Positions 282 to 30,299 of a stretch of DNA of 64,000 bases are shown here, in pieces; position 1 is the first letter of the stretch; the number at the start of each line of letters is the position of its first letter. The position numbers and the translations under genes were made by a program. This stretch comes from Neocallimastix lanati (nom. inval.). Its lineage: Eukaryota; Neocallimastigomycota; Neocallimastigomycetes; Neocallimastigales; Neocallimastigaceae. The notes under the pieces were generated by a model. The model ran no database searches and was not told where the DNA came from. It saw only the letters and a list, made by a program, of their open reading frames with translations. The DNA lies in NCBI GenBank assembly GCA_016946835.1, contig JACVTC010000018.1:1459501-1523500 (forward strand), read 5' to 3'.

Positions 282-1360
282 CTAATATGATAAATGTTCA
301 AGTTCATTTAATTGATCTACTAATTCATATAAAGATGATTTTGTTGGAAATAAATTATTTAAATAATTATTGAGTGATTCTGAGGCATTGTTTGTTATAT
401 GTTCTATATTATTATAATAATTCCAAATTTTCATATCATAATCAATTAAATATGTTTTATAAAAATATTCTAAAAATTTTAAAAATTGACAATAATTATT
501 TTTAATGGATTTAATTTTAATTGAAACGTAAATATCAAATATGTATTCAGGATTTATAAATGGTAAATTTGAAATAGCTTTATAAATAAATAAATATATT
601 ATTATCATTTTTTACTTCATTAGAACATTATTTATTTTTTTTTTTTAATTTCTAGTGATTTTTTATAATACTAAATGCAATATTTAATATTGGTATTAGG
701 AAATATTGTTTTTGCTGCTTTAGATATGCCCCTTTCAAAATCATAATGCAAATTTTTTTGATTCAATTATAATATTATTGTTACATGTATTAGTTTTTTT
801 TTTTTTTTTAATTTTTCAAATAATATTTTATATGTTTCTTGTTCTTTATTTTTTAATATTGCAAAAGAAATAGTGTAAAAACTTTATAATTCTTTAGCAT
901 AAGTTCTTGTAATAAATATTTGATAACTAAATTTAGGGGCAATAAAAAATGTACCATCAACAAATAATATCATCATTATATTCCATAAATAATTTTGCTT
1001 GAAAAGGGGATTGAAAAATTATTAAATTAGAATTTTTGAATATCATAAAATTTTCACCTCGCTTTGTTTTATATTATTCAGATTCACTAGGAATTTCAGC
1101 CAATGTTGTTACATTGAATGGTAGTTTTTTATTTAAATTTCTTGATATTTGAGATTTAATTGAACTATACTTTGAACATATAAGTCCCTTTTCTTTAGAA
1201 ATTTTATTATATAGGGGTTTTATTTTTATACTAAAAGGAATTGAACTTTTTTTTTAATTCCATCTTTAATTTTATGTTTCATTATAGTTAGAGATACATC
1301 GTATTCTTTTTTAGGATGATTAGGTGAACTATCATATTTTAAACCCCAGCATGCGCAGAT
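282..1360 (-). pseudogene. Mutator-like (MULE) transposase, decayed
   Basis: This is a DNA-transposon transposase that would cut and rejoin element ends in the nucleus. Read leftward from about 1355, a CxxC-type FLYWCH-like segment comes first (YDSSPNHPKKEYDVSLTIMK at about 1330-1275). Next come a MULE core block with DGTFFIAPKFSYQIFITRTY (about 975-895) and then ILKNKEQETYKILFEKLKK (about 860-810). The C-terminal part is open at 608-282 and contains NNIEHITNNASESLNNYLNN, the usual end of fungal and microsporidian MULE transposases. The frame changes several times: near 970 just before the DGTFF block, near 820-700, and at a stop near 1075. The core is therefore dead. No terminal inverted repeats were identified. 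Family assignment is from motif memory; the breaks are read directly. Confidence 0.75.
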
Positions 1361-1433
1361 CTTGAAACTTCGGCTGTTTCAGTTGCTATGAAATCATTCT
1401 TTTAGTAAAAGATAAATAAAACCTCATATATTC

Positions 1434-1742
1434 TCAATGATTATAGATGTAATAAATATATTGACAGTATTGTTAATACAAACAATAATGGAAACAGTAG
1501 TTGTGATAATGGAGACTACTGATATATCATTTATGACAAAGAAGGGAAGATACCAGACTCTAACCTAGAAATAGAAGTAGAAGTTTCTGATGACCCCTCA
1601 GAAACAAAAATTAATGATGATCAATTTTATAATGAACAAGACCAAGAAAATAATAAAACATTCGCTTTGGCTATGAATTGGAATTGGAATTTTTATTATA
1701 ATAATTTTAATCATTATAATCGCATGTTGTTGTAAACATTAA
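1434..1742 (+). pseudogene. C-terminal remnant of a single-pass membrane protein
   Basis: The plus strand reads a cysteine-containing segment (RCNKYIDSIVNTNNNGNSSC), an acidic stalk (IEVEVSDDPSETK, then EQDQENNKT) and a transmembrane helix of about 18 residues, IGIGIFIIIILIIIIACCC, ending with KH and a stop at 1740-1742. The helix lies in a different frame from the stalk, with the shift near 1675. There is also a stop in the Cys segment near 1512. The order ectodomain, acidic stalk, Gly/Ile helix and Cys cluster is that of a plasma-membrane surface protein. I do not recognise the family. The neighbouring MULE may have helped destroy the gene. The TM helix is clear; that the parts belonged together is inferred. 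Confidence 0.5.
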
Positions 1743-2859
1743 TAGAAATAAAAATTTTTTTTTTTATAATGATTTCCCTAAATTTCAATATTTATGAAAT
1801 ATAAAGAATTACTCATGTCACTTTATAAAGTATCAATTTAAATTACCATATATTTAATTCCATACTCAAAACTATAAATACTTGTGGATAGAGAAAAGAA
1901 AAGAAACATAGAATTCGTAAATATCATGTATTAATATATATACATTAATATATATATTCTATTGAAAGAGGTTAATCACACACGCACACATTAAATCTAC
2001 TTATATTTCAAAATAATAGTAGAATATAAAATATTAATTTATAATTAACTTAGAATTAATATATAATAAATTACTTATAAATAAAAATTTACATTAAGAA
2101 CATAAACGATATATATATATATATATGAGAAAACATCAATTATAAATTAATTAACACGAAAATTTTTTTAGGATATCATTTAGTAACGAAGAATGATTTA
2201 ATAAGAAAAGAAGATTTAAAAATATCAAAAAAAGAAGAAAATGAAAATAGAAATTTATATGATAAGACCAATATTTCTCAAAATACTTAAATGACTCAAT
2301 TATAAATTTGCATATTAAGAAGTCTAATAGTGAAAATTAGCAAAAATTAACCTACAAGAAGATATTAGTTGAAATGTCGAATTATTTATGAATTATAAGG
2401 CAATTTATATTATTTACTTAATAAGTTTAAATAACTAGAATAATATAATTAATTATAAATGCAATCAATTTTAATACCCCAAAATTATGATTATAAAGTA
2501 CACCGATATATAATTAAGGATTTGTTGTAATAGTTATCGCTAAACTATAAAGCGAAAATATATAAGAGTTATCGCTTATCTAGAAAGCGGGTTAAGATTG
2601 AAAGTGATGTAAATCCTAATAAATAAGAGGTATTTATAGATTGAGATGGTATAATATCACCCTTCAAGAGGAAGGTTTTCATCATAAAAATGGTATATAG
2701 ACCATATATGATAAGAGATGTTTTTAGGTACATCTAGAAGTACAGATGGTGTAATAATATTAAATATTTAGTTTTAGAGGAAAATAATTAGATTACAAAT
2801 ATATTTTAAGAAATTATTTTAGCAATATTTAAAATGAATTAAAGAATTAAAATATTGTA
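1743..2859. other. A+T-rich spacer, no gene seen
   Basis: About 1.1 kb with short AT runs, an (AT)n run at about 2111-2126 and no frame longer than a few dozen codons. The part at 2500-2760 is slightly richer in G+C and may be decayed element sequence, but no protein motif was recognised. Confidence 0.5.
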
Positions 2860-3300
2860 AGATTATTGTATTTATGAAAAAGTGAAGTTAGGTTAGTAAA
2901 AGAAATAATTTATAGCTTAATAATATCAAATGAATAATATTATCGAATAGAATAATTTTATATAGGCATTTGCACCAGTAAACCAATTTATTCATTACTG
3001 AATAATTAGATTTAAGAGGGAATGTTAGAATATGTGAAAATAGTTAAATTACTAATAATTAATAATAACATTACTAATCTAATAGTTCTTAGAATATTCA
3101 TGTATTAAGTTATTTCTAATATTGTTAAGCCACATTTAAGATATATAAATACATGTAATTTGTATCTATTTTTACATAAGCCTTAATCTATATAAAATCA
3201 ATATAGAAATAACTCTTTATAATTAATAAATAAAGTTAACTTAATAAGATATAAATCTTATTTTCTAATAAATATAAATAATAAATAATAAATAATATAT
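2860..3300 (+). mobile_element. Ty1/Copia 3' end and LTR, fossil
   Basis: A purine tract (tttaagagggaa, 3011-3022) is followed directly by TGTTAG at 3023, the layout of a polypurine tract and the start of a 3' LTR. The body shares the segment AAATACATGTAATTT and the preceding AAGCCACA with the LTR at 39375, so both belong to one Copia LTR family. Just upstream, a short frame (APVNQFIHY, about 2970-2998) resembles the end of Copia pol. The LTR outer end cannot be fixed; it fades into AT repeats near 3290. The element is broken and old. Confidence 0.5.
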
Positions 3301-3459
3301 ACATAAATAAATAATTAAATAATACAATAATAAATAATTAACTTGTAAAATTAAAACATTCAACTACATTAAATATATCAAAAGTAATGATTATATGAGT
3401 TTATAATTAAGTCAATTTTATTAATATATTTAATGATGAAGAGTTACTGTCACTTTTGT

Positions 3460-3760
3460 TTTTTTTTTTATTAACGACCATAGCAGGATTTCTCCCCAGC
3501 TGCAAATCCGTAGACACACAATGGTTTATTACTGGAGCCCTTATCTGACTTCTTACTTAGTAGGTGGTGCTGTCCCTGCTGGACTGCCTTCCAGTTTCTC
3601 TGCATTAGGGCTCCTTACCCAAGTATTATTACTGCTTGTCATTGTACGATAATCTTACAAATGGGTCTTGCTGCCACAATCTCTGTGATCACGTGACAAT
3701 TGCTCCATAACATACCTATAAGTAAGGATAATTAAATTTTTCATAAGTCACCATATGTTT
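3460..3760 (-). mobile_element. Retroposon-like 3' end with poly(A), possibly LINE
   Basis: Roughly 280 bases have nearly balanced base composition in a very A+T-rich setting. Read on the minus strand the block runs from about 3760 down to 3475 and ends in GGTCGTTAAT followed by a run of A. This is what a non-LTR retroposon 3' UTR with a poly(A) tail looks like. Just 5' of it (about 3830-3750, minus strand) two frames stay open; one ends in NGKFLKRRYKTYGDL and a stop. No reverse transcriptase motif is visible, so LINE or SINE identity is inferred. No clear target-site duplication was found. Confidence 0.45.
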
Positions 3761-4754
3761 TGTATCTCCTCTTAAGAAACTTGCCATTCATACTCAACCT
3801 TCTCAGGTCCGAAAGAAGTGTAAATCGATGAAAGTTGAATTAGAGATCTAGGAGTATCAAATATGGGTATAATACTTAACTGAAGAGAACTCAAGAGCCT
3901 TATTTATATATTTTTTTGTGAAAATAAGGTTAAATAAAAAAAATGTTTTCTAATCTTAATAAATATCTTATCTAGAAAAAGATTAGAAGAAAAAACTAGA
4001 TAAGTTTTTTGATCGATATTCTATTCATATCGATCATCGTATACATTATGTAAAACCAAATATATTATAATATTTGGATAAAACCTTAAAATACCTATTT
4101 TCTATATTTTAATTTAGATCATCAAATAAAAGAAAAAATAAAAAATAACCGAATCTGATCTAAATTAATCTAATTTTCTAAATATCATTAAAATCTAATC
4201 TAAGCTTATAAATATAATACTATCTTTTAAACTAAAATATAAAATTATACAAATACGGAAACTTAGTAATTATTCTTTTAAATGTACAATGTAAAAAATA
4301 AATAAAAGTAATGTTTTACATTAAGTTAATGGTTAAGTGGAAGTGGATAATTTAAATAAATTATTAATATTAATAAGTGTATAAATAATAAATATTTAAT
4401 TAAGTTTATTTATATTTTTTAATTAAAATAATTATTTATAATAAAATAATTAAAAATCAACATGTATATTAAATTATTTAGAAATTTTAATTTTATATAA
4501 AGGTATAAAAATATCGAATTCTCCCTAAATAAAAAAAAGGGACAAAGAGAAAAATAAATAAATAAAAGTAATATAAAATTTTTACATCTTATAAGAGCAT
4601 TGCGTCTCAAACTTTACGGTGAAGAGTACGGGAGAGTACTCTTTAAAATTTTTTGAAAATTTATGGACATTTTAAAAAAAAAAAAAAAAAGAAAAAAAAA
4701 AAAACATATTTTTGTTTTGGTTTTAATATATATGATTAATTTTTTTTATTTACA
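3761..4754. other. Intergenic, A+T-rich, with one hairpin
   Basis: No supported gene. A perfect inverted repeat, AGAGTAC (4623-4629) and GTACTCT (4636-4642), can form a 7-bp stem with a 6-base loop about 110 bp before the gag fossil. Its role is unknown. A poly(A) run lies at about 4674-4703. Confidence 0.4.
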
Positions 4755-5770
4755 ACAGATTAGATAATAAAAAACAATTATAACAAAGTAATATTAGTCG
4801 CTGCAAAAGTGAAAAAAAAAGAACTTCCACCGGTTGAAGATTACAAAAAGAATGTCTTAGAATGGATAGAAGACCTTAAGGAATATCTACTTCTCTATGA
4901 CATAACAGAACCACAAAAGGTATTTACGTGGGTATTAGCCGCTCTGAAAGACGAGATGTTAAGGATGTTATCCATGCTCATGCTTCTAGAAGAAACGGTG
5001 AAAAATGCTACCCATAATTTAGTGAAATACAAAAGGCTGTGGAAAGGTATTTAGTGAAAACTGAAGGTGACAAATGGGCAGTCTTGAGGAATATTACAAT
5101 AACAGAGGGGGGGAAACGCTAAAGCAGGTTAACTACCTCTATAAAAAGTTGTATCATAATCTTAGTCGGGAATATCAGAAATTAATAACCGTCAAGGAGT
5201 ACAAGGAGTTTATTAGTACCAGGATTTTTCCATGCTCTCAGGTATCTTTTGCTAAAGTAGATATACTTTACAAGAGACTTATGAAATCTTGGAGCGTGCT
5301 GAAACAATGGAACAGGAAATTCAGGACAGGAATGAGAGCTCCCAACCAAAAAAGAAGACGAAATTTAAAAAAAAAAAAAAAAATTACTACGGTTGCCAAA
5401 GCCAGAAACTTTCTCACTACTCAGGGCTACCGAGATTACCAACAAAGAAATCATGAAGCTTAATAAGAACTTTACTTCTACTAGGAAATTCACTTCTTCT
5501 AGGAAATCAAAAGGTAATAATGCTTACAATAAAAACATTCAAAAAAAAAAAAAAGTTAATCTTAGTTGGTAAAGGTTGTATCTACTAGGAAACCAATCAT
5601 CATTAGTTGTTTTAGATGTATCCAACTTAGTCATAAGTCCCTACCCCGAATGTACATACTCCTTTAGAGATTTAGCTGAAATGAAAGAGAATGGACTTTT
5701 TAAACTAGAAGATGTGAAAAGGAAAACTTCCAGTAACCAAAACCAATATATTAACCACCAGTCGAGTGCT
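4755..5770 (+). mobile_element. Ty3-type gag fossil
   Basis: Three neighbouring open blocks on the plus strand (about 4809-5054, 5074-5463 and 5576-5833) carry gag-like sequence. The first has the W-rich helical matrix/capsid style (VLEWIEDLKEYLLLYDI, then VFTWVLAALKDEM). The second is helical and ends in a very basic Lys/Arg tail like a nucleocapsid region. No protease, reverse transcriptase or LTR could be tied to it. It is a broken old fragment with several breaks and abuts an opposite-strand gag fossil at about 5770. Confidence 0.5.
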
Positions 5771-5776
5771 AGTAAG

Positions 5777-6400
5777 TCAAGCCCAAAACCAATTCGACTC
5801 CAATTTTGGCCGATAACTCACAACTATATATGAATTTTGACCTTGGAAATTGGAGAATTGTCTATGAGTAGAAATACAATTATCGATCCTAGACGCTATT
5901 GTTTGCATAGCAAAGAGGGATTGAGGTCCAGGAAACATTTCTAAAATTCTAGTAGCAATATGGTCATGTAGACCGGCAAGAAAGGTGTCCATCTTAGCTT
6001 CTTCTTTCCAAGAAGATTCATCGGGGTATTTATTAAATTCTAAAATATAATTCCTGACTTCACCAACTCGTCTTTGTTTGATTGTTCTTAATTTCTGGTT
6101 GGCAATAAAGGTAGAATCATAGCTTCCAAATACTGATTTTAGTCTAGCAATGAACTGACTATAATTAAGGAGACAAGGATCTTGGTTTTCAATAAGAGTA
6201 GCTGCCCGATTCATGGCGTTTCCATACAAGCGAGAAATGATATAAATTACTTTAGCTTCATCGTTCGCAAATCTTTCCGGTTGAATCATAAAAATTAGTT
6301 TCCATTTTAGCTAGAAATCCTTTAAAGAATCGACGATCACCAGCAAAACCGTCCTTAAAGATAGGAATTTCATGGTTATTGTTGTCCATATTGAAATTGA
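5777..6400 (-). mobile_element. Ty3-type gag fossil (5' part of an element)
   Basis: The minus strand carries a typical Ty3 gag. The open block at 6289-5777 has the capsid-like signature YSQFIARLKSVFGS, then GEVRNYILEFNKY, then FLAGLHDHIATRILEM. A plausible gag start (MDNNNHEIPIF) lies near 6389. Only gag is present: pol is missing and the piece abuts an opposite-strand gag fossil. The leader and LTR, if any, would lie at higher coordinates (6400-7330). The fragment is broken; age cannot be judged without a paired LTR. Confidence 0.65.
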
Positions 6401-7350: not shown

Positions 7351-8026
7351 ATGTACAGGGTTTTTCTTGCTATTATTTCAAGCAAGTAATTTATTAAAAT
7401 AATTAAAAATATAAGTTATTATTATTATTATTTTTTTTATATTATACTAATTTAAAATTAAAAATTATTATTAACCATTCAAATATTTAATTATTATATA
7501 TTTTTATATTTTAAATATAATTATTATAAATTTTATACCACAAATTATTTCATATTTAATATTTATTGTCAATTATTCAAATATTTATTATTATAAACTA
7601 TAATCAACAAATTGTTTCATTTAAATAGGCCGTATATATAAATAATATAAATAAATAAATATATATATAATTAGTATTTTTGAAAGTAATTATCATCAAC
7701 ATATATTTATTATTAACTATTCAAATATTTAATTGTTATAAATATATATATTTGAAATTGTTTTATATAAATAGCTAGTGAGTATAAATATATATATATA
7801 TATATAAATATTATAAATATTTTTTGAAAGTAATTGTAAAAAAAAAAAAAAAAGAAAAATAATATATATATATTAATTACGTATTATTGTAATATTTTTT
7901 ATTATGAATTTAATACAAAAAATTATTTCATACTTATATTTATTGTCAATTATTCAAATATTTATTATTTTGAATTATAATCAACAAATTGTTTCACTTA
8001 AATAGGCTGTAAGTTTAAATTATATA

Positions 8027-8092
<66 letters not shown>

Positions 8093-11080
8093 AATTTATA
8101 AAATTAATTGTAAATATTGTACTTTTATTATCAATTTTTTAAATATTTAATTATAAATTTTTATTTTTTAAATTGTTTTATATAAATAGATGGTATGTAT
8201 AAATATATTTTAGCATATTATTAAATATTTTTGAAATTAATTGTAAATAACATATTTATTATCAATAATTCAAATATTTAATTGTTATAAATATTTAAAT
8301 TTGAAATTGTTTTATATAAATAGCTAGTAAGTATAAATATATATAAAAAAAAATATTATAAATATTTTTTGAAAGTAATTGCAAAAAAACAAATATTTAT
8401 TACGTATTATTGTAATTTTTTTTATTTTACATTTAATAAAAAATTATTTCATACTTATATATTTATTGTCAATTATTCAAATATTTATTATTTTAAATTA
8501 TAATCAACAAATTGTTTCACTTAAATAGGAAGTAAGTTTAAATATATATATATAAATATATTATTAACAACTATTAAAATTAATCATAAATAACGTATAT
8601 TTATTATCAATTATTCAAATATTTAATTATTATAAATTTTTATTTTTTAAATTGTTTTATATAAATAGCTGGTATGTATAAATATATTTTAGTATATTAT
8701 TAAATATTTTTGAAATTAATTGTAAATAACATATTTATTATCAATTATTAAAATATTTAATTGTTATAAATATTTATATTTGAAATTGTTTTATATAAAT
8801 AGCTAGTGAGTATAAATATATATAAAAAAATATTATAAATATTTTTTGAAAGTAATTGCAAAAAAACAAATATTTATTACGTATTATTATAATATTTTTT
8901 TATCATACATTTAATACAAAAAATTATTTCATATAAAGTTGGTTAGTATAAATATATATTTATAAATATAATATTAAAATTATTTGAAATTAATTTTAAA
9001 TAATTTATATATATTAATGATCATTCGAATAATTAATTATTTTAATTTTTGAAAAACAAATTGTTATATATTAATAGGACGTAAGTTTAAATTTATATTT
9101 AGATATAATTAAAATTTTTGAAATCGGTTTAAAGATAAGAAATATTTATTTTAATTATTTAAACAATTTAATTATTATTAATTTAATATATATAATTTAC
9201 TGATTTATATAAATTAGCTCGTAAGTATAAATAATTAAGCATATTATTTAAAAATTTGATGTTTATTTGTAAATAACATATATTTATTATTAATTATTAA
9301 AATATTTCATTAATATTATTCAACAAATTGTTTCATATATATATAGATAGTAAGTAAAAATATGTATTTAATGTAAATATATTATTACAAATTTTTCAAA
9401 TTAATTTATAATTAACATATATCAATTATATCTATTTTACATATTTCGTTGTTATTAAATTTATATTAAAAAATTGGTTTACATTAATAGATGGTAAGTA
9501 TAAATATGTATTTAAATACATTATTTAAAATTTTTTGAAATTAATTTTTAAATATCATCATATATATATATTTATTATCAATATTTTAAATATATAATTA
9601 ATAATGATTTTTTATAATAAAAATTTTTTTATATAAATAGCTAGTAAGTATTAATAATATATAAAAATAAAAAATATTATTAATATTTTTTTAAAAGTAA
9701 TTTTAAATAACCAAGAAGAGGAAGAACAAGAAGAGGAAGAACAAGAAAATAAAGAAGAAGAAGAAGAAAATGAAGAAGAAGAAAGAAATGAAGAAGAAAA
9801 TGAAGAAGAAAATGAAGAAGAAAATGAATAGGAAGAACAAGAAGAAGAAGAAAAGGAAGAAGAAGAAAAGGAAGAATAAGAAGAAAAGGAAGAAGAAGAA
9901 GAAAATGAAGAAGAAAATGAAGAGAAATAAGAAGAGGAAGAAGAAGAAAAAGAAAATGAAGAAGAAGAAGAAAATAATGAAGAAGAAGAAAATAATGAAG
10001 AAGAAGAAAAAGAAGAAGAAGAAGAAAAGGAAGAAGAAAAAGAAGAAGAGGAAGAAGAAGAAAATAATGAAGAAGAAGAAAAAGAAGAAGAAGAAGAAAA
10101 GGAAGAAGAAAAAGAAGAAGAAGAAGAAAAGGAAGAAGAAAAAGAAGAAGAGGAAGAAGAAGAAAAAGAAGAAGAAAATGAAGAAGAAGAGGAAGAAAAT
10201 GAAGAGGAAGAAAATGAAGAAGAGGAAGAAGAAGAAAATAAGAAAGAAGAAGAAGAGGAAGAAGAAAATAATGAAGAAGAAGAAAGTAGGGAAGAAGAAG
10301 AAAAAGAAGAAAATAAAGAAGAAGAAGTAGAAAATGAAGAAGAAAATGTAGTAGAAGAAGAAGAAAATAAGGAAAAAGAAGAAGAAAATGAAGATTCAAC
10401 TGAAGAAGAAGATCAACCTACTGAAAGACAACCAACTGAAAGACAACCAACTGAAAAAGAACCACCAAATGAAGGAGAAGATCAACCAAGTGAAGAAGAA
10501 GATCAGCAAACTCGTGATCCATGGAAATGTGGTGAAGGAATTGGTAGCTGTGCAGAAGGTTTATGCTGTAGCAAGTATGGATGGTGTGGAAAATCTGAGA
10601 AGTATTGCGATGTCAAGAATGGTTGCCAATCTCTATATGGTGAATGTACTGATACTTCCAGAACGATAATTCCAGAACAATGCGGTAAAGGTATAGGTAG
10701 CTGTGCTGAAGGATACTGTTGTAGTAAGTATGGTTGGTGTGGAAAATCTGATAAATATTGTAAGACAGATAAATAGTAAATATGGTAAATGTCCAAAAGG
10801 TGAATGCTGTAGTAAATATGGTTGGTGCGGAATTTCTAGTAAATACTGTAATATAAGTGAAGGCTGTCAATCAGAATTTGGAACCTGCATAGCAAAGAAG
10901 ACCATTACTAAGACCACTACTAAGAAAGCTATTAGTAAATCTAATAATGGAAGATGTGGTAAAAATTATGGCAAATGTCTTCATGGTGAATGCTGTAGTA
11001 AGTATGGTTACTGTGGTACTTCCACAAAGTATTGTAAAAAGAGTTCTGGATGTCAATCCCATTATGGAAAATGTTGGTAA
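7351..11080 (+). CDS. Secreted Glu-rich protein with four CBM18 chitin-binding domains (frame disturbed)
   Basis: Exon 1 starts at ATG 7351 and encodes MYRVFLAIISS, a signal-peptide start, before a donor at 7386 (GTAATT). After 2.3 kb of intron-like units comes a Glu-rich stretch (about 9715-10380), then a Thr/Gln/Pro linker (TERQPTERQPTEKEPP) and four CBM18/Chitin_bind_1 domains. Domain 1 runs 10528-10648, domain 2 starts at 10681, domain 3 at about 10790-10888 and domain 4 at 10955-11074. The hallmark CCSKYGWCG, KYC and GCQ motifs are present. The frame ends at TAA 11078-11080. CBM18 binds chitin, so a cell-wall or extracellular role is likely. Oddities: TAG at 10774-10776 and a frame change between domains 2 and 3, where the end of 2 and first Cys of 3 are missing; and three stops in the Glu frame (9829, 9877, 9928). 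A final acceptor at AG 9930-9931 would avoid these three stops. It may be a recent pseudogene or contain assembly errors. Confidence 0.7.
7386..9715 (+). other. Tandem array of 14 candidate 3-nt microexons between intron-like units
   Basis: Fourteen sites read AG, three bases, GT. The triplets are GCC 7629, CTA 7775, GCT 8006, ATG 8190, CTA 8324, GAA 8529, CTG 8669, CTA 8803, TTG 8939, GAC 9078, CTC 9218, ATA 9347, ATG 9491 and CTA 9641. Acceptors are TAG in 13 and AAG in one. Donors are GTAAGT in eight, GTATGT or GTGAGT in four, GTTAGT in one and GTATAT in one. Spacing is mostly 129-150 bp. Units share blocks such as ATTATTCAAATATTTAATTAT, so they arose by tandem duplication. Two longer spacings (231, 205) look like double units that lost the middle site; 184 is due to a TTA run. 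In phase 0 the triplets read A L A M L E L L L D L I M L. Phase 1 is also open. Phase 2, which the GT donor of exon 1 implies, hits TAG; a GC donor at 7382 would give phase 1. Splicing is inferred, not shown. Confidence 0.6.
8028..8090. repeat. (TTA)n microsatellite
   Basis: About 21 uninterrupted TTA/ATT units inside one intron-like unit. They account for the longer spacing (184 bp) between the third and fourth candidate microexons. Confidence 0.9.
9715..10380 (+). repeat. GAA/GAG purine tract coding a Glu-rich region
   Basis: About 670 bases of almost pure purine on the plus strand, built of GAA, GAG, AAT and AAG codons in the frame that runs into the CBM18 domains. The other plus frames give Lys-rich open frames and the minus strand a Leu-rich one; these are shadows. 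The Glu frame is uninterrupted from 9931. A polypurine tract this long can form triplex or slip during replication, which fits the length variation usual for such linkers. Confidence 0.8.
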
Positions 11081-13444: not shown

Positions 13445-13879
13445 ATTCTTACAAATTCATTTTTTTATTTACATCTACACCATGCTTTATTAAATATTCT
13501 CCTAATTCTTTTTTATTACTTTTACTGACCTTAAATATATAGAATATTAACTGTTATATCCATTTAGGCTTCATATCTTTTTTTTAAATATTCTATTAAA
13601 TCTTATTTTCCACTTTCACATACTTAAATTAATTATATTCTTCCATATTTATTTTCTTAAATTTATTTTCGTGAATTATATCTACTCCATGTTCTATGAA
13701 GAATTCCACAAAATTTCTATTTACACTTCCATTGTTTTACCATTTTTATCTTCCATGTATATATATGCTCCATGTTTTTCTAAATATTCAACTAAATCGT
13801 TTTTACCACATTGCGAGACTTTAAATAATGGTATTTCACCATATTTATTTTTTTTTATTTATATTTGATCCATTTTCTA
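13445..13879 (-). pseudogene. Decayed continuation of the ankyrin array
   Basis: After the open frame of the 852-residue ankyrin gene ends at 13880, the minus strand still codes recognisable ankyrin units in shifting frames: EYLVENGSNIN, then GEIPLF, then NDLVEYLEKHGAYIYMEDKNGKT, then FVEFFIEHGVDI near 13700. Several frameshifts and stops are present. The ancestral protein therefore had about four more repeats, and the present stop follows a frameshift near 13890. Confidence 0.7.
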
Positions 13880-16438
13880 CTAAGTATTCTGCAAATCTTT
13901 TGCTCCTAATTCAATTGCTATTAATAATGGTGTTTCACCATCTCTTTTTTCTTTATTTATATCTGCTCCTTTTTTTACTAAGTATTCAAGTAATTCTTTA
14001 TTTCCACTGCTAATTGCTTTTAAAAATGGTGTTTCACCATTTCTATTTTTTTTATTTATATTTGCTCCTTTTTCTACTAAGTATTCTAGTAATTCTTTTT
14101 TTTCATCGCTAATTGCTATTAATAATGGTGTTTCACCAAATTTATTTTCCCTATTTATATCTGCTCCATGTTCAACTAAGAATTCTACAAAATCTTTTGC
14201 TCCTAATTCAATTGCTATAAATAATGGCGTTTCACCATTTCTATCTTCTTTATTTATATCTACTCCATTTTCTACTAGGTATTCTAATAAATCTATATTT
14301 TCACTTCTAATTGCTATTAATAATGGTGTTTCACCATCTTTATTTTCTTTATTTATATCTGAACCATTTTCTACCAAGTATTCTAGTAATTCTTTATTTC
14401 CACTGCTAATTGCTATTAATAATGGTGTTTCACCACTTTTATCTTCTTTATTTATATCTGCACCATTTTCTACTAAGTATTCTACTAAATCTTTATTTTC
14501 ATTAATAATTGCTATTAATAATGGTGTTTCACCATCTCTATTTTCTTTATTTATATCTGCTCCATTTTCTATTAATATTTCTATTATATCATTATCTTCT
14601 AATTCACAGGCATTAAATAATGGTGTTTCACCATCTCTATTTTCTTTATTTATATCTGCTCCTTGTTCTACCAAATATTCAACTAAGTCTTTTTTTCCAC
14701 TTTCACAGGCCTTAAATAATGGTGTTCTACCATATTTATTTTCTTTATTTATATCTGCTCCATTTTCTACTAAGTATTCTACTAATTTTTTTTTTTTAGT
14801 TTCACAGGCCTTAAATAATGGTGTTTCACCATCTTTATTTTTTTTATTTATATTTGCTCCATTTTCTACTAATATTTCTACTAAATCTTTATTTTTATAT
14901 CCAATTGCCTTAAATAATGGTGTTTCACCATCTTCATTTTCTTTATTTATATCTGCACCATTTTCTACTAAGTATTCTACTAAATCTTTATTTTTATTAA
15001 TAATTGCTGTTAATAATGGTGTTATACCATATTCACCTTCCATATTTATAACTGCTTCATGTTTAATTAAATATTCAACTAAATCTTTATTTCCACTTTT
15101 ACAGGCATAAAATAATGGTGTTTCACAATATTTATTTTCTTTATTTACATCTGCTCCAAGTTCAGCTAAATATTCAACTAAATCTTTATTGCCACTTTCA
15201 CAGGCATAAAATAATGGTGTTTCACCGTATTTATTTACTTTATTTATATCTGCTCCATTTTCTACTAAGTATTCTACTAAATCTTTATTTCCGCTTTTAC
15301 ATGCGTTGAATAATGGTCTTTCACCATTTTTATTTTCTTTATTTATAACTGCTCCATGTTCAACCAAATATTCAACTAAATCTTTATTTCCGCTTTTACA
15401 TGAGCTGAATAATGGTGTTTCATCATTTTTATTTTCTTTATTTATAATTGCTCCATGTTCTACTAAATATTCAACTAAATCTTTATTTCCACTTTCACAG
15501 GCATAAAATAATGGTGTTTCACAGTATTTAATTTCTTTATTTATAACTGCTCCATGTTCTACCAAATATTCAACTAAATCTTTATTGCCACTTTCACAGG
15601 CCTTAAATAATGGTGTTTCGCCATTTTTTTTTTCTTTATTTATAACTGCTCCATGTTCTACCAAATATTCAACTAAATCTTTATTTCCGCTTTTACATGC
15701 GTTGAATAATGGTGTTTTACCATATTCATTTTCTTTATTTATTATTGCTCCATGCTCTACTAAATATTCTACTAAATCTTTTTTTTCACTTTCACAGACA
15801 TAAAATAATGGTGTTTCACCATCTTCAGTTTCTTTATTTATATCTGCTCCATGCTCTACTAAATATTCTACTAAATCTTTATTTCCACTTTCACATGCAT
15901 AAAATAATGGTGTTGTACCATAATCACTTTCTTCATTTATATCTGCTCCATTTTCTACTAAGAATTCTACTAAATCTTTATTTCCACTTTCACACACATC
16001 AAATAAAAGTATTTCATTATCCTTATAAAATATTTTTTTTGTATCCACTCCATGTTTTACTAAAAATTTTAATAAATTTTTATTTCCATATTCAATTAAA
16101 TAAGTATCAATTATGGAAAAATCATACCATCTTTTAAAATCTAATTTAATTTTATATTTATTTTTAGAAATTTCATAATTTAAATTCTTGGTAGGTGTTT
16201 TATTTTTATATAGAAAAAGTAAACGTTTAATAAATTCATCATCATAAAACTTTGAAATATTAAAAATATTTTTTAATTTCTTTAAATTTGAATTCTTTAT
16301 TAATTCTTTTATTTCAGAAGAAGTAATATATTTATCATTTTCTTGATCATTTGTTAGAGTTTTTAAACTTTTAGACGTATGTCCATTATTATTATAATCT
16401 TCAGATTTTATATTTCTCTTCTTTTCACGGTTATTCAT
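13880..16438 (-). CDS. Ankyrin-repeat protein, about 22 repeats of 33 residues
   Basis: 852 residues. The N-terminal about 110 residues (MNNREKKRNIKSEDYNNN onward) are charged and of unknown fold. Then about 22 tandem ankyrin units follow, of the form DLVEYLVENGADINKENKYG plus ETPLFKACESGNK, each 33 residues or 99 bp, to residue about 847. Ankyrin arrays are protein-binding solenoids; no catalytic domain is seen, so an adaptor role is likely but the partner is unknown. There is no signal peptide or membrane segment. The start ATG at 16436-16438 is the first in frame. Repeats differ at the loop position (GADINKE, GAVINKE, GAIINKE). Units 4-8 (GAVIN/GAIIN) resemble each other closely, which suggests local duplication. 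The last residues (LQNT) come from a frameshift; decayed repeats continue downstream to 13445. Confidence 0.9.
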   Translation of the reverse strand: MNNREKKRNIKSEDYNNNGHTSKSLKTLTNDQENDKYITSSEIKELIKNSNLKKLKNIFNISKFYDDEFIKRLLFLYKNKTPTKNLNYEISKNKYKIKLDFKRWYDFSIIDTYLIEYGNKNLLKFLVKHGVDTKKIFYKDNEILLFDVCESGNKDLVEFLVENGADINEESDYGTTPLFYACESGNKDLVEYLVEHGADINKETEDGETPLFYVCESEKKDLVEYLVEHGAIINKENEYGKTPLFNACKSGNKDLVEYLVEHGAVINKEKKNGETPLFKACESGNKDLVEYLVEHGAVINKEIKYCETPLFYACESGNKDLVEYLVEHGAIINKENKNDETPLFSSCKSGNKDLVEYLVEHGAVINKENKNGERPLFNACKSGNKDLVEYLVENGADINKVNKYGETPLFYACESGNKDLVEYLAELGADVNKENKYCETPLFYACKSGNKDLVEYLIKHEAVINMEGEYGITPLLTAIINKNKDLVEYLVENGADINKENEDGETPLFKAIGYKNKDLVEILVENGANINKKNKDGETPLFKACETKKKKLVEYLVENGADINKENKYGRTPLFKACESGKKDLVEYLVEQGADINKENRDGETPLFNACELEDNDIIEILIENGADINKENRDGETPLLIAIINENKDLVEYLVENGADINKEDKSGETPLLIAISSGNKELLEYLVENGSDINKENKDGETPLLIAIRSENIDLLEYLVENGVDINKEDRNGETPLFIAIELGAKDFVEFLVEHGADINRENKFGETPLLIAISDEKKELLEYLVEKGANINKKNRNGETPFLKAISSGNKELLEYLVKKGADINKEKRDGETPLLIAIELGAKDLQNT

Positions 16439-23514: not shown

Positions 23515-24287
23515 TGTAAAGATATTATTAATATCTTTATAAATTTTAATTAAATTTAATCATAAATTTAAGTAAAATTGAAATAAATCTATTAAAAATC
23601 ACGTGTATAAAATTATTGCAAATAATTTTAAACAAAACTTCGACTTCTTCCCAATCATATTAATAAATTAAAAATTTCTCTTGTGAAACTAGTAATTGAA
23701 AATCATTTCTTTTTATGTAATTTAATTTAAATAATAAGAGTTAAGGTTTTTTACAAGATAAATTAACAACATGAAACTATGCAATTAGTCATGTTGAAAC
23801 TTACGGCATTTTATGCTAAATTTATATTAAATAATTATGACAACTTTTATATTATTTTAAAATAGAAAATATATAATAAATTTACTAATAATATTTAAAT
23901 AATAAATAAATAATAAATGAACTCAATTAGAATTGATTATATTTATTTTAGTTATTAATTATAATTCTCTTTATTTAGTAATAGTTAATTATTTATTATT
24001 AGTTTAGGTTAGTATTGTTTTTAAATAAATAGTTAGATAATATAATTCAATAGGAATTATATATTCTAAATGTAATAAGATAAAAATATAAATAGTTAAC
24101 CAAATTTCATGTATTTTAATCGATGTAATTGTTATTAACGATTTATTGTTAATAACACTAATAATTAATAAAGATTATTTTAAAATCTAAATATAATAAA
24201 ACTTATTTGTTTATAAAACATTTTTGTGTTATTTAGTGTTATTATAATTTTTGACTTATAATCTATTTTTTAAATCAAAACTTTATA
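23515..24287 (+). repeat. 5' LTR of the whole Ty3 element
   Basis: Starts TGTAAAGATATTATTAATAT, whose first 21 or so bases form a near-palindrome (AAAGATATT with AATATCTTT), and ends CTTTATA. It is bounded by the ACTGC duplication on the left. No obvious TGG-type tRNA primer site follows. Confidence 0.93.
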
Positions 24288-24665
24288 ATAACAATTACCT
24301 TTTTCTCTCAATAAAATACGTTATAAGTCAAGATTATAACACGTGATACGTTAACAGTGGCTTGTGTGTGGCTTGATTCAAAATATTTTTTTACCAGTTT
24401 TAGATTATTGCTACCAGTTTCAGAATATTGCCACCAGCTCTATAATATTGCTACCGAAATTACAATTACACGTCTTAGAACAAGATTCGAAAAACCATAA
24501 ACCTTTAATATTTTAATTTATAACGTTACGTTTACTCGACAGCACCGCTTCAAAGGATAGAGCTAGATCGACTAGATGAAAAAACGTTATAGTTTGAAAT
24601 ATTTATTTGTTTGATATTTTTGTTAAAGAAATTGCAAAAATTTAAGTCAATTTAAAATAATCAAA
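24288..24665 (+). promoter_or_regulatory. Untranslated leader of the Ty3 element
   Basis: About 380 bp between the LTR and the frame. It contains CAC-rich direct words (ACCAGTTTTAGATTATTGCT, ACCAGTTTCAGAATATTGCC, ACCAGCTCTATAATATTGCT), a threefold 22-24-bp repeat at about 24394-24454 that could be a packaging or primer-related element. Function unknown. Confidence 0.5.
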
Positions 24666-24719
24666 TTGGAGGGATTTAACAACCTAATAAGAAGATTCGA
24701 AGACCTTAACCTGCAAGAA

Positions 24720-27700
24720 ATGAATCAAGAGAATCATCAAGTTCTGCCCCGTAACAATCAAAAGATTGTTAACGAACCACCGCTATTTTCTGGAATCAAG
24801 AAGGACTTTGATGGCTTCCTTACAAGAGCTGAAATAGCTATGGAAGCCAATCCACAAGGTTTCAATAATGACCATACAAAGGTCAGATTTATAATTTCTT
24901 ATCTTGTCGGTGATCCCTTGATATGGGCCTCAAACTTGCGAAGAAATAATGATCCCCTGCTCAATGTTTATGAAGATTTTATTCAAGAATTAAGAAATCA
25001 ATTTGGAGAGCAGGACATGAGCACAGTTGTCGCAAACGGTAAATTATGCAGCATCCGACAACATAAATTTGGTCATGTTAGTGAGTATATAAATGAATTT
25101 AATAAAATCAGCAGACATTCAGATTTTAACGATTCTGCTAAGATTTATATGTTTGTAAAAGGACTTCACTACAAGATGAGGGAGCACCTTGCAGTGGTAA
25201 ATCCAAATCCCAACAACTTAAGAAGACTTTTCACTGATGTCCTTAGTATCGAAAGCTTAACTAAGAGACATGAAATAAATGAATTTTTCTATCATAATTA
25301 TTACCATCGTAAGGAAATAAATAATAATAATCATGCGTCTACTAGTGATCCAATGGAAATAGATTTATACAGAATTAAGAGAGGACAAACGAATACAAGA
25401 TACTTCCCTTCTAACCAGAAATTATATCAAGAAAACTCGAATTCAAGAGATGAAGAAAGAAGGAAAGGATTGTGCTATTATTGTAAAAAACCAGGTCATC
25501 GCCATTTTAACTGTCCGAATAAGAAGAAACCTGCCGGAGTCAAGATTATCAGTAAACAAGAAAACACCGCTACCACACCCTCAAGTAGTTTAAGAAGAAT
25601 CAGAAGAATCAACAGCCAAGAAGATATTGTCAAAGTTAGAAAAATCGTGGAAGAACAAAACTCACTTTTGACAAAGAAAAGTAACATTATTGATTTTTAT
25701 ATCAAAACAAACGATACAGAAGAAGTAAAGGCAAGAGTTTTGATTGATTCTGGATCAGATCTTAACTTTATTCACCCAGAATTTGCGAAGGCTTTTGGAA
25801 TCAAAACCCAACAAATTGAAGAACCATTCCGTGTTACTGGTCTTGGTTACGGAATATCAACAGTTAAAAAGGAAACGGAGAAGTGCATTTTACGATTAAA
25901 AAATCACTTAGAAACCATTCAATTGTATGTACTCAGAATTCCTGATGTTGATATTATTTTAGGTCTACCTTGGATTGAGAAGCATTCGCCTTATAATTAC
26001 CACGACGCAAAGAAGATCTCCTTTGGCTCAGGATTTTGCGCTAGACACTGTAATAACGGTAAAAGAAAAAGAAAGAACAAGATCAAGAACAAGAAAAAGA
26101 ACAAAGGAAAAGAATCTGCTACCGACTTGGAAGAAAATAAAATTATTGAAGACTCAAAAAAAAGAAAATCTTTCTTTGACTCCGATTCCGAATCTGATTC
26201 TGAAGAAGAAATTTCTATTCGTGGCCGCCGAACTCGTATTAGAACTTGCTCTGAATTTAATAATTATGATAGTGATAGTGATATTAATGATACTTTTATG
26301 TTAGATAATTTTAGTAATAGCATTAGTGATAGTGATAACTTTAGCGATAGTGATGATATTATTGTTATGAATTGTGATAGTAAAATTAGTACTAATAGTT
26401 TAAGGATTTTAAAGAAAATTTGTGAATCTAGTAAATGTAAGAAATTAAATGTAATTGAAAAATGTAATGATGAAGATAATAATTTAAATAAAGATGGTGA
26501 AAAGGTCGAAGTACCTGAAATCTATTTGATGTTTAAAGAAGTGTTTAATGAAAATAATTGTAATGTGTTACCTCCGCATCGTAATTATGATTGTGAAATT
26601 AAATTAAAAGATAATTGTAGTCTATTTTATGGTCCGTTGTACCCTTTAACTGAAACGGAGAGAGAAGAATTAAAGAAATATTTAGAAGAGAATTTAAAAA
26701 AGGGTTTTATTAGGAAATCTTCTTCTCCCGCTGGAGCACCTATTTTATTTGTTAGAAAAAAGGATGGTACATATAGACTAGTTATTGATTATAGAAAATT
26801 GAACGAAATGACCATCCGTAACTCTTATCCACTTCCTTTAATTAGTGAATTGTTGGATAGAGTTAAAGGTGCTAAATATTTTACTAAGTTAGATTTAAAA
26901 TCTGCTTATAACTTAGTAAGAATTAAAGAAGGTGACGAGTACAAAACTGCCTTTCGTACAAGATACGGGCACTTTGAATATCTCGTTATGCCTTTTGGGC
27001 TTAAGAATGCCCCTGCTACATTCCAACATTTTATAAATGATGTTCTCAGTGATTACTTAGATGATTTTGTAATCTCTTACATTGATGACATTTTAATTTA
27101 TTCTAATATTTTAGAAGAACATCATGTACATGTTAAGAAAGTTTTAAGAAAATTGTTAGAGAATCATTTAGTTGTTAAATTAGAAAAGTGTGAATTTGAT
27201 GTAACTGAAACTACTTTTCTTGGTTATGTTTTATCAAGAGATGGAATTAAAATGGATAAAGAAAAAGTTAAAGCAATTTTAGATTGGCCTGTTCCAACAA
27301 ACGTTAAAGAAATTCAATCGTTTATTGGACTTTGTAATTATTACAGAATTTTTATTAAAGACTTTGCGAAAATTGCAAATCCTCTCCACAAATTAACTAG
27401 AAAAAATGTTCCTTTTAATTGGAGTTCTGAACAACAACAAGCGTTTGATACTTTAAAAGAATTATTTACTACTGCTCCTATTTTGAAACATCCTGATAGC
27501 AACAAACAATTCATTGTTGAAACTGATGCTAGTAATTTTGCTGTTGGTGCAATTCTTTCTCAGGAATTTGATGGGCATTTGCATCCAATTGCTTTTATTT
27601 CTACTAGCTTAACTAAATCCCAAAGAAATTACCCTATCTATGACAAAGAACTTCTTGCTATTAAAGTTGCATTGGAAGGATGGAGACATTACTTAGAAGG

Positions 27701-29489
27701 AGCTCGCCATCAGTTTATTATTTATACTGATCATAAAAATTTAACCTTTCCTCGAAAACCCGAACTCCTTTCCCAACGTCAAATCCGTTGGTATGAATTC
27801 TTATCTAGATTTGATTTTAAACTAATTTACAGAGCTGGTAAAAAGTCAGGTAAACCAGATATTTTATCAAGACGTAGTGATCATTTATTTGCTAGTGTTC
27901 GTCCTATTTCATGCGTTATTAATTCATGTAGTTTTAAGAATGATTCTTTAATCTCCTCTATTCATGATTCTCTAGCTAATGATGAATTCTATTGCAAAAT
28001 AACTGAATTTCTTAAAAATGATAAATCAAAAGATCCCCCTTTTAGTAAAATCGATAAATTTTCTCTTGACAAAAATGGTTATTTACTTTTTGAAAATTTA
28101 ATTTATGTTCCCAATAAAATTAGAATAAGAGTTTTAGAACTCCATCATGACTCTATTTCTGCTGGTCATTTTGGAATTAATAAAACTATTGAACTTATTT
28201 CTCGTAATTTCTGGTGGCCTAAATTACAAAAAGATGTTAAAATGTTTATTAAATCTTGTGAAATTTGTTCAAAATCCAAAATCCCAAGACATAAGCCATA
28301 TGGTTTACTTTCTCCACTTTCTACACCAAATAGAGCCTGGTCTGCTATCTCTATGGATTTTATTGTTGAACTTCCGAAATCCAAAGATATGACCACTATA
28401 ATGGTTGTTGTGGATCGCTTAACTAAAATGGCTCATTTTATACCTTTTAGATGTCTTCCTACTGCTTCTATTGCTGCTGATTCTTTCATTGCTAATATTT
28501 TTAAACTTCATGGTTTCCCCGATTCTATTATTTCTGATCGTGGTTCTCAGTTTACCTCTGATTTTTGGAATCGTCTTTGCTCTCTTTTAAATATTAAGCA
28601 TTCTTTTTCTACTGCTTATCACCCGCAGACCGATGGTCAAACGGAGAGGGTGAACTCGATATTGGAACAATATCTTCGTTGTTTCATCAATGAAAAGCAA
28701 AATAACTGGCTTGATTTATTACCTTTTGCAGAATTTTCCTATAATAATACTTTACAACAGTCAATAAATCAATCACCATTTTTTGCAAATTATGGTTTTA
28801 ATCCGAAATTTAATCCTGAAATTCCTTCAAATGAGAATCCGCATAGAGCTGAGAAAAGAATATTAAATATTAATGAAAACATTAAATTTTTAAAAGAAAA
28901 CTTAGAGCAAGCAAAAAAGACTTATAAGAAATATGCAGATCTGAAAAGAATGGATTCTCCAGATTTTAAAGTAGGAAATAAAGTTTATCTTTTAAAGGGT
29001 AATACAACAAAGAAAAATAGAAAATTATCTGATCAACTAATAGGACCTTTTGAAATAATAAGAAAAGTTAGTGACTTAGCGTACGAACTTAAACTTCCTA
29101 ATAATATGCGTTGTCACCCTGTATTTCATGTTTCACTTCTCGAACCTTACCATGAAAATGAATTTTCAAACAGAAGAAATACTCGTAGAAGAAATATTAA
29201 TCTTAATACGGATACAATTGATAGAACTCCTGAAAGAATAATTAAAATGAAAACCTTTAACAATAAGAATCGTTACTTGATTAAATGGAAAGGATGCGAT
29301 TTTAGTGAAAATACTTGGATTGATGAAGATCAAATTCTTGATAGACAATTAATACAAGAATATTACAGAAAAGAAAAGAAGAACAAATCTTCGAATGTTA
29401 ACAACGAATTCTGTCAACCACCTGATGATGCAAACGAGTACTATGTTAGACATAAATATCAACCTTTTGTAATTGATCTTCCTTCTTAA
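24720..29489 (+). CDS. Gag-pol polyprotein of the Ty3 chromovirus
   Basis: A single fused gag-pol frame. The open frame begins at 24666 without an ATG; the first in-frame ATG is 24720, giving about 1589 residues. In order, numbered from 24666: gag to about 265, CCHC knuckle CYYCKKPGHRHFNC (about 269), protease VLIDSGSDLNFIHPEF (about 357), Asp/Ser-rich linker (about 500-570), reverse transcriptase VMPFGLKNAPATFQ and YIDDILIYS (about 780-810), RNase H ETDASNFAVGAILS (about 950), integrase zinc finger and DDE core (SMDFIVELP about 1229, SDRGSQFTSDFW about 1288, TDGQTERVN about 1322), and a C-terminal chromodomain (RYLIKWKGCDFSENTWIDED, about 1535). The chromodomain places it with chromoviruses, which read histone marks to choose sites. 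There is no separate pol frame, so gag and pol are made as one product. Confidence 0.93.
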   Translation: MNQENHQVLPRNNQKIVNEPPLFSGIKKDFDGFLTRAEIAMEANPQGFNNDHTKVRFIISYLVGDPLIWASNLRRNNDPLLNVYEDFIQELRNQFGEQDMSTVVANGKLCSIRQHKFGHVSEYINEFNKISRHSDFNDSAKIYMFVKGLHYKMREHLAVVNPNPNNLRRLFTDVLSIESLTKRHEINEFFYHNYYHRKEINNNNHASTSDPMEIDLYRIKRGQTNTRYFPSNQKLYQENSNSRDEERRKGLCYYCKKPGHRHFNCPNKKKPAGVKIISKQENTATTPSSSLRRIRRINSQEDIVKVRKIVEEQNSLLTKKSNIIDFYIKTNDTEEVKARVLIDSGSDLNFIHPEFAKAFGIKTQQIEEPFRVTGLGYGISTVKKETEKCILRLKNHLETIQLYVLRIPDVDIILGLPWIEKHSPYNYHDAKKISFGSGFCARHCNNGKRKRKNKIKNKKKNKGKESATDLEENKIIEDSKKRKSFFDSDSESDSEEEISIRGRRTRIRTCSEFNNYDSDSDINDTFMLDNFSNSISDSDNFSDSDDIIVMNCDSKISTNSLRILKKICESSKCKKLNVIEKCNDEDNNLNKDGEKVEVPEIYLMFKEVFNENNCNVLPPHRNYDCEIKLKDNCSLFYGPLYPLTETEREELKKYLEENLKKGFIRKSSSPAGAPILFVRKKDGTYRLVIDYRKLNEMTIRNSYPLPLISELLDRVKGAKYFTKLDLKSAYNLVRIKEGDEYKTAFRTRYGHFEYLVMPFGLKNAPATFQHFINDVLSDYLDDFVISYIDDILIYSNILEEHHVHVKKVLRKLLENHLVVKLEKCEFDVTETTFLGYVLSRDGIKMDKEKVKAILDWPVPTNVKEIQSFIGLCNYYRIFIKDFAKIANPLHKLTRKNVPFNWSSEQQQAFDTLKELFTTAPILKHPDSNKQFIVETDASNFAVGAILSQEFDGHLHPIAFISTSLTKSQRNYPIYDKELLAIKVALEGWRHYLEGARHQFIIYTDHKNLTFPRKPELLSQRQIRWYEFLSRFDFKLIYRAGKKSGKPDILSRRSDHLFASVRPISCVINSCSFKNDSLISSIHDSLANDEFYCKITEFLKNDKSKDPPFSKIDKFSLDKNGYLLFENLIYVPNKIRIRVLELHHDSISAGHFGINKTIELISRNFWWPKLQKDVKMFIKSCEICSKSKIPRHKPYGLLSPLSTPNRAWSAISMDFIVELPKSKDMTTIMVVVDRLTKMAHFIPFRCLPTASIAADSFIANIFKLHGFPDSIISDRGSQFTSDFWNRLCSLLNIKHSFSTAYHPQTDGQTERVNSILEQYLRCFINEKQNNWLDLLPFAEFSYNNTLQQSINQSPFFANYGFNPKFNPEIPSNENPHRAEKRILNINENIKFLKENLEQAKKTYKKYADLKRMDSPDFKVGNKVYLLKGNTTKKNRKLSDQLIGPFEIIRKVSDLAYELKLPNNMRCHPVFHVSLLEPYHENEFSNRRNTRRRNINLNTDTIDRTPERIIKMKTFNNKNRYLIKWKGCDFSENTWIDEDQILDRQLIQEYYRKEKKNKSSNVNNEFCQPPDDANEYYVRHKYQPFVIDLPS

Positions 29490-29526
29490 AGTTAATCTCG
29501 CAGGAGCTCGACTTAAGGGGCGAGAT

Positions 29527-30299
29527 TGTAAAGATATTATTAATATCTTTATAAATTTTAATTAAATTTAATCATAAATTTAAGTAAAATTGAAATAAAT
29601 CTATTAAAAATCACGTGTATAAAATTATTGCAAATAATTTTAAACAAAACTTCGACTTCTTCCCAATCATATTAATAAATTAAAAATTTCTCTTGTGAAA
29701 CTAGTAATTGAAAATCATTTCTTTTTATGTAATTTAATTTAAATAATAAGAGTTAAGGTTTTTTACAAGATAAATTAACAACATGAAACTATGCAATTAG
29801 TCATGTTGAAACTTACGGCATTTTATGCTAAATTTATATTAAATAATTATGACAACTTTTATATTATTTTAAAATAGAAAATATATAATAAATTTACTAA
29901 TAATATTTAAATAATAAATAAATAATAAATGAACTCAATTAGAATTGATTATATTTATTTTAGTTATTAATTATAATTCTCTTTATTTAGTAATAGTTAA
30001 TTATTTATTATTAGTTTAGGTTAGTATTGTTTTTAAATAAATAGTTAGATAATATAATTCAATAGGAATTATATATTCTAAATGTAATAAGATAAAAATA
30101 TAAATAGTTAACCAAATTTCATGTATTTTAATCGATGTAATTGTTATTAACGATTTATTGTTAATAACACTAATAATTAATAAAGATTATTTTAAAATCT
30201 AAATATAATAAAACTTATTTGTTTATAAAACATTTTTGTGTTATTTAGTGTTATTATAATTTTTGACTTATAATCTATTTTTTAAATCAAAACTTTATA
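29527..30299 (+). repeat. 3' LTR of the whole Ty3 element
   Basis: 773 bp, apparently identical to 23515-24287. It is preceded by a purine-rich stretch (TTAAGGGGCGAGAT, 29513-29526) that serves as the polypurine tract. It is followed by the ACTGC duplication at 30300-30304. Confidence 0.93.

Follow-up and report, generated by a model that had tools for sequence, protein, structure and literature searches.

The 64-kb window analysed here, from contig C90 of the 199-Mb assembly of the anaerobic gut fungus Neocallimastix lanati, contains an array of fourteen units in which exactly three nucleotides (nt) stand between a splice acceptor and a splice donor (AG-NNN-GT). We are highly confident that the triplets of this array are genuine protein-coding exons, one after another, in a family of micro-exon genes. 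The sequence pattern, the exon lengths, the open frames and the match to an outside protein, here called P0121, are shown directly. The window itself looks, from its sequence, to hold a damaged member of the family.

A recount finds all 14 units (14/14) between positions 7629 and 9643 of the window, see Table 1. The acceptor is TAG in 13 of them, the exception being the AAG before 8939, and the donor fits GTNNGT in 13, the exception being GTATAT after the first triplet; the counts given in the original prediction are thus borne out. The same holds for its description of the units as tandem duplicates of mostly 129–150 bp, as 10 of the 13 start-to-start spacings fall in this range and the remaining three are 231, 184 and 205 bp. 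When both strands of the window are searched, 12 of the 13 copies of TAGNNNGTNNGT lie inside the array. The triplets were also said to be the most variable part of the unit. This stands with respect to the splice signals, as the three triplet columns have an entropy of 1.8, 1.1 and 1.8 bits over the 14 units, compared with 0.0–0.6 bits for the last six acceptor positions and 0.0–0.9 bits for donor positions 1–12. However, it does not stand for the whole intron, where some deeper columns reach up to 2.0 bits and equal the triplets. The G+C content is 45% in the triplets versus 8% in the intron cores, and in phase 1 the 14 triplets read open. Besides the remnant listed in Table 1, there are further remnants of units near 7921 and 8442, where acceptor, triplet and donor have likewise been lost together.

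The same kind of array occurs elsewhere in the genome, with about ten distinct AG-NNN-GT arrays in all. Arrays like that of the window are found on C268, C445, C643 (two), C104 (two), C112, C235 and C135, and near-copies on C571, C351, C431 and C70. A genome-wide pattern search with the spacer left free between 0 and 15 nt returned 93 matches, 92 with a spacer of 3 nt and one of 6 nt, i.e., a multiple of three in 93/93, while the reversed control pattern returned 6. Twenty of the 93 lie on contigs that repeat other arrays (two on C70 and six each on C351, C431 and C571); leaving out these four contigs gives 73 matches, of which 72 have a 3-nt spacer and one a 6-nt spacer. A weight matrix was trained on the strict matches, with spacers of 1–24 nt, from four of the ten arrays. 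Scanning all ten with a free spacer of 1–30 nt and a threshold of 10 gave 235 matches (221 of 3 nt, 231 multiples of three), versus two on the reverse strand and two when each array was resampled once under a first-order Markov model; as units inside one array are mutual duplicates, these counts are not independent events. The duplicates C351, C431 and C571 were excluded from the matrix and triplet counts, and C70, which is one of the ten and repeats six triplets of C104a, was kept in both. Because of the genome-wide free-spacer result, a chance origin of the 3-nt spacing is excluded. Across the arrays, the triplets have a G+C content of 26–52% versus 7–8% for the intron cores, and conserved flanks, AAATAG ... 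GTAAGTATAAAT, surround the variable core.

The original prediction would have been refuted by intact copies of the motif at many non-genic places, which were not found. Genome-wide, the sites lie in arrays, including one on C135 that proved to be part of an array, plus a single site on C31. The latter (C31:165777) is a lone intact AG-AAT-GT apart from the known arrays, near a stretch that is 81% like the window array. For the weaker DNA matches on C14, C25, C38, C79, C121 and a second region of C112 (L021), the scan gave no 3-nt spacer; weaker matches outside that scan include C1, C2, C19, C31, C37, C46 and C53. A candidate duplication of 12 units on C268 was dropped, as the loci L002 and L003 overlap.

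Gene models were made by hand for three of the genes, C445 as a whole and C104b and C268 in part. An alignment of the homologous loci places the array in the middle of a far longer series of microexons; the fourteen units described originally are real, but this longer series was overlooked. In the family, the N-terminus comes from exons 1 (20 nt) and 2 (56 nt), which leave phase 1; it is hydrophobic and, by inspection alone, reads like a signal peptide in C445, C104b, C268 and C643a. Longer microexons of 6–51 nt, many of them bearing a cysteine, flank the arrays. The genes close with a giant glutamate-rich last exon, which carries CBM18 modules in those copies whose end was read. As in other micro-exon genes, the lengths of nearly all exons that precede the last one are divisible by three (C445 80/82, C104b 39/41, C268 62/64), the exceptions in C445 being exons 1 and 2. 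From exon 3 onward, the introns are of phase 1 in all three models, and where homologous downstream exons can be aligned, their lengths differ between loci by multiples of three, e.g. 42/45/45/51. Three relatives of the end of exon 2 are found on C135, at 1578558, 1590718 and 1595799, with an array (L032) of eight 3-nt exons downstream of the first.

The C445 model has 83 exons, of which 82 come before the last and 62 are of 3 nt, including an unbroken run of 53 consecutive 3-nt exons. Its introns are GT-AG with a median of 132 nt, and the frame is open for 2236 residues to the first stop. The encoded protein consists of an N-terminal cysteine-rich domain containing the (DFD)n array segment, a very long glutamate-rich stretch, TDSATV repeats and six CBM18 modules, the C-terminus matching PF00187 in six stretches with 145.7 bits (cut-off 27.8). 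The C445 array (L011/L012) is a higher-order repeat of three units, ATG-ATT-TTG, spelling (Asp-Phe-Asp)n in phase 1. In the C104b model the last exon is preceded by 41 others, 22 of which measure 3 nt, and the frame is open over the 4220 codons taken in. In the microexon part, the other two frames contain 8 and 53 stops in C445 and 8 and 29 in C104b. The C268 model comprises 64 exons across 10.6 kb, 47 of them of 3 nt. In all three models the longer exons were placed by hand. Other choices by hand were to drop a 7-nt match and add one 9-nt and one 3-nt exon in C445, to drop a 2-nt match and add the exons AAG and TAG in C268, and to add TCA, AAG and TAG in C104b. The N-termini of C445 and C104b match no Pfam family.

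The strongest link between the arrays and a protein comes from P0121, a sequence of 248 residues encoded on a contig of 1,132 bases from the Joint Genome Institute (JGI). It was the sole match when the C104b N-terminus was searched against 5.8 billion proteins (E 3.5e-54; proteins of about 165–525 residues). The list of C268 triplets had been fixed before P0121 was known. Read in phase 1, the C268 array, with 46 exons of which 45 measure 3 nt and one 6 nt, predicts 48 residues, and 46 of these are identical in P0121. The alignment scores 262, while 2000 shuffles of the exon order score 28 on average and 62 at most, and the other two frames score 17 and 22. For the 64-exon model as a whole, 150 of 154 residues are identical. 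The array-coded segment has no contiguous match in the fungus's own genome (E up to 10), and matches between P0121 and the C268 locus are confined to individual larger exons. As a contig of 1,132 bases is too short for a locus of 10.6 kb, P0121 should derive from spliced RNA or from a copy of it. The earlier inference that a CBM18 gene contains spliced 3-nt microexons of one residue each is therefore supported at the level of the family. The idea that such a protein varies in length by single residues fits as well, since the only gap in the alignment has the size of one 3-nt exon, P0121 being one residue longer than predicted (GIGG versus GRG). Arrays of the C268 type are predicted to write tryptic peptides such as GWTPWPINSLASLR. 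Searches of P0121 against PDB and NCBIfam gave nothing credible, and a structure prediction without alignment had a mean predicted local distance difference test score (pLDDT) of 50 and was not used.

Several observations count against this interpretation. The open frame is less telling than it seems, as shuffles of the triplet order are free of stops in 13% and 28% of the trials, and the bare triplets are nearly as open in phase 0 (2 stops/222) as in phase 1 (3 stops/212; shuffle mean 6.4). Stop avoidance alone is thus not decisive. We read the three phase-1 stops, as well as a stop in the decoding of the C104b array, as artefacts, because a 12-nt exon between two triplets is omitted there in C104a, C104b and C268; the two finished gene models contain no stops (0/183 and 0/148). 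Where C268 has a GGG exon, C104a, C351 and C431 carry a run of ten G, which is not a multiple of three. At least two units, in C445 and C268, have kept the acceptor and lost the donor, and were left inside longer introns. The C445 N-terminus found no relative among 1507 candidates, a search over proteins of about 1,230–3,910 residues, a range that does not include P0121. The C268 exons outside the array were placed after P0121 had been seen, guided by the C104b exons fixed earlier, and so were two of its 47 3-nt exons, AAG in the array and TAG after it. When the match is extended into the start of the glutamate-rich part, identity is 184/201 with 11 gaps, and an 18-nt exon for the ENDCEK of P0121 was not found in C268. 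Finally, P0121 is a single matching sequence, whose origin from RNA we infer from the length of its contig.

The ten-G run (C104 L015, C351 L018, C431 L017) sits between intact splice signals, and the contigs that carry it are near-identical.

Within the family, the window copy has its own history. Its last exon matches PF00187 at 9931–10773 and at 10697–11077, with two stretches each; the two pieces score 53.3 and 64.8 bits and pass the curated cut-off of 27.8. Across its last 110 residues it is 79% identical to the C-terminus of C445. It is rather likely that this copy is a dead fragment whose 14 microexons are unused now, which is compatible with the family being real. The last exon contains in-frame stops at 9829, 9877 and 9928, in the glutamate-rich part, and its frame is broken near 10774, among the CBM18 modules. 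A pattern search for the canonical exon 2 of the family found no match on C90, the signal-peptide-like N-terminus is not recognised by inspection, and stretches resembling retroelement fragments lie directly upstream of the array at 4800–6400, also by inspection. A transcript of the window copy was not seen, and P0121 matches only its C268-type relative. However, both splice signals are kept in 14/14 units, while the three remnants have lost theirs whole. Phase 1 suits both the candidate first exon with its GC donor and the acceptor of the glutamate-rich exon, and in this phase the 14 triplets are open; if the GT donor at 7386 were used instead, the array would be read in phase 2, where 3 of its 13 codons are stops. 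The stops could also be assembly errors in A-rich sequence.

For the family, a satellite in one giant intron is rejected by P0121. The array would then be an AT-rich repeat whose splice-like sites are never used, which we regard as very improbable. The units are clearly tandem duplicates sharing sequence, as expected of a satellite, and a transcript of the window copy was not seen. Such a repeat does not explain why P0121 holds, in order, 46 of the 48 residues predicted from the C268 array, why the triplets alone show a coding-like G+C content, or why the spacer is a multiple of three in every genome-wide match. Slightly less probable still is recursive splicing, in which the units are ratchet points for the stepwise removal of one intron and the triplets are finally lost. 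Acceptors and donors standing back to back do resemble ratchet sites, but at a ratchet site no base is retained between acceptor and donor, and here the triplets are kept in P0121. Stepwise removal of introns with the triplets retained is instead part of the explanation we prefer. The least credible proposal, an array of bipartite DNA- or RNA-binding sites with a free 3-nt spacer, would suit the long conserved flanks around a variable core, yet it is rejected by the spacer lengths and by P0121, as it gives no reason for 6 nt as the sole other spacing, for a position between coding exons in three modelled genes, or for spelling a protein known from elsewhere.

Table 1. Coordinates, strand and basis of the exons and of a unit remnant in the window copy.
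Feature	Position in window	Strand	Basis
Candidate first coding exon, ATG to GC donor (GCAAGT at 7382), leaves phase 1	7351..7381	+	sequence; phase from family models
Unit remnant (near 7543), acceptor, triplet and donor all gone	7530..7570	+	sequence
3-nt microexon 1, GCC	7629..7631	+	sequence pattern
3-nt microexon 2, CTA	7775..7777	+	sequence pattern
3-nt microexon 3, GCT	8006..8008	+	sequence pattern
3-nt microexon 4, ATG	8190..8192	+	sequence pattern
3-nt microexon 5, CTA	8324..8326	+	sequence pattern
3-nt microexon 6, GAA	8529..8531	+	sequence pattern
3-nt microexon 7, CTG	8669..8671	+	sequence pattern
3-nt microexon 8, CTA	8803..8805	+	sequence pattern
3-nt microexon 9, TTG, AAG acceptor	8939..8941	+	sequence pattern
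3-nt microexon 10, GAC	9078..9080	+	sequence pattern
3-nt microexon 11, CTC	9218..9220	+	sequence pattern
3-nt microexon 12, ATA	9347..9349	+	sequence pattern
3-nt microexon 13, ATG	9491..9493	+	sequence pattern
3-nt microexon 14, CTA	9641..9643	+	sequence pattern
Last exon, glutamate-rich stretch then CBM18 modules; AAG acceptor 9713-9715, phase 1	9716..11077	+	frame, PF00187 matches, likeness to C445

In the proteins predicted from the models, the cysteine-rich domain, encoded by phase-1 microexons, includes a segment in which each residue has its own exon; up to 53 such 3-nt exons follow one another (C445), separated by introns of about 130 nt. The spliceosome probably recognises such short introns as whole units, which would make room for exons too small to be defined themselves. 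Across each intron in turn, the closest strong sites would probably be joined. The removal of introns would be stepwise, because with only 3 nt between them an acceptor and a donor can hardly both be bound simultaneously. The strong donor GTAAGTAT may compensate for the missing exon context.

The units would multiply through tandem duplication of exon plus intron. As the internal exons from exon 3 on are multiples of three in one phase, gain, loss or skipping of a unit would alter one residue and keep the frame. A unit that loses both sites would merge two introns, which fits the three remnants in the window. Loss of the donor alone would be expected to be harmful unless the unit is skipped; as P0121 has no extra residue at the donor-less unit of C268, skipping seems to be tolerated, judged from this sequence comparison. 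Between C104a and C268, the acceptor AG has changed at 0/30 positions, the donors at 2/90, the introns at 99/2138 and the triplets at 6/45. The difference between triplets and introns (Fisher p 0.019, one pair and small numbers) hints that the coding triplets change faster than the introns.

The family protein is chitin-binding and probably secreted, given the hydrophobic N-terminus read by eye, and it may be anchored in the fungus's own chitin wall. The array may serve as a variable segment. More tentatively, and with somewhat less than even confidence, one codon per exon can be seen as an entirely new category of mechanism for encoding and diversifying proteins. The segment would lengthen, shorten and change one residue at a time with no risk to the frame, through duplication and loss and possibly through skipping in individual transcripts, with the splice signals fixed and the triplets outpacing the introns.

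Several known systems share part of this architecture; the comparisons below draw on the available parts of the cited papers. The micro-exon genes (MEGs) of schistosomes have 10–20 very short exons, mostly of 15 bp, with introns of 0.1–5 kb (PMC10526429); the range of exon lengths is given as 6–81 bp in the text and 3–81 in the abstract of that paper. Schistosoma mansoni MEGs encode secreted proteins with a signal peptide, as is probable for the fungal genes, and resemble these in having short exons that are mostly multiples of three and in forming a family that is scattered over the genome and hard to annotate (PMC10526429). However, our modelled genes have 41–82 exons before the last, 22–62 of them of 3 nt, and unlike MEGs they carry arrays of tandem exon-intron units whose introns measure about 130 nt. 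The parallel drawn here is one of structure, not of homology.

The bicycle genes of aphids have about 17 exons on average, and the megacycle gene, which encodes about 2000 residues, contains over 100 microexons (PMC9168663), from which we calculate some 60 nt per exon (2000 residues/~100 exons). Their internal exons are unusually small, nearly all start at codon position 2, and the proteins are putative effectors (PMC9168663). Internal exons starting at codon position 2 are found in our three models as well, a structural likeness only, whereas the bicycle genes belong to insects and arrays of one-codon exons are not mentioned in the part of the paper available (PMC9168663). In plants, APC11 and VPS55 contain exons of 1 nt, so splicing of exons of 1–3 nt is feasible, at strong GTRAGT donors; however, the cases in the available part of the paper are singles or adjacent pairs of microexons in otherwise ordinary genes (PMC8831610).

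CBM18 (PF00187) proteins of anaerobic gut fungi also have C-terminal CBM18 modules, and the listed relatives include Anaeromyces, Piromyces and Neocallimastix. However, none of the four that were read (one of them without its start) has the glutamate-rich stretch or the microexon-coded domain. Among the matches listed in the literature searched, which included few subscription papers, no report of microexons in anaerobic fungi was found, and a term search of a Neocallimastix genome paper (PMC12341934) found neither "intron" nor "exon". For tandem, consecutive or adjacent microexons, the titles and the beginnings of the abstracts pointed only to the RPS24 gene and to algae or plants. In the available parts of the MEG, bicycle and plant papers compared here, an array of one-codon exons is not described. 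By kind, the gene is an extreme micro-exon gene; the array of one-codon exons, taken by itself, may represent a new kind.

The window contains further features. Identical direct repeats of 300 nt at 23515–23814 and 29527–29826, 6012 bp apart, enclose an open reading frame of 1607 residues (24666–29489, plus strand), and the region 23515–30271 looks like a young long terminal repeat retrotransposon. On the minus strand at 13733–16438, there are 23 copies of a 99-bp (33-residue) repeat with an open reading frame of 852 residues, which we take to be ankyrin-like. A satellite of (AATAAAT)n covers about 5 kb at 42950–47985. Searches of the window with Rfam at gathering scores and with tRNA scans gave no matches.

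Gene prediction may miss genes of this kind, as the C445 query found no relative and the C104b query found one (among proteins of about 1,230–3,910 and 165–525 residues, respectively). If our interpretation is true, the spliceosome of this fungus would include dozens of successive 3-nt exons in a single transcript, exceeding the 10–20 short exons given for MEGs in the available part of the source. The family would then offer a direct way to study how splice sites find their partners when exons cannot be defined, and in what order introns are removed. It would also provide a safe route to protein variation in steps of a single residue.

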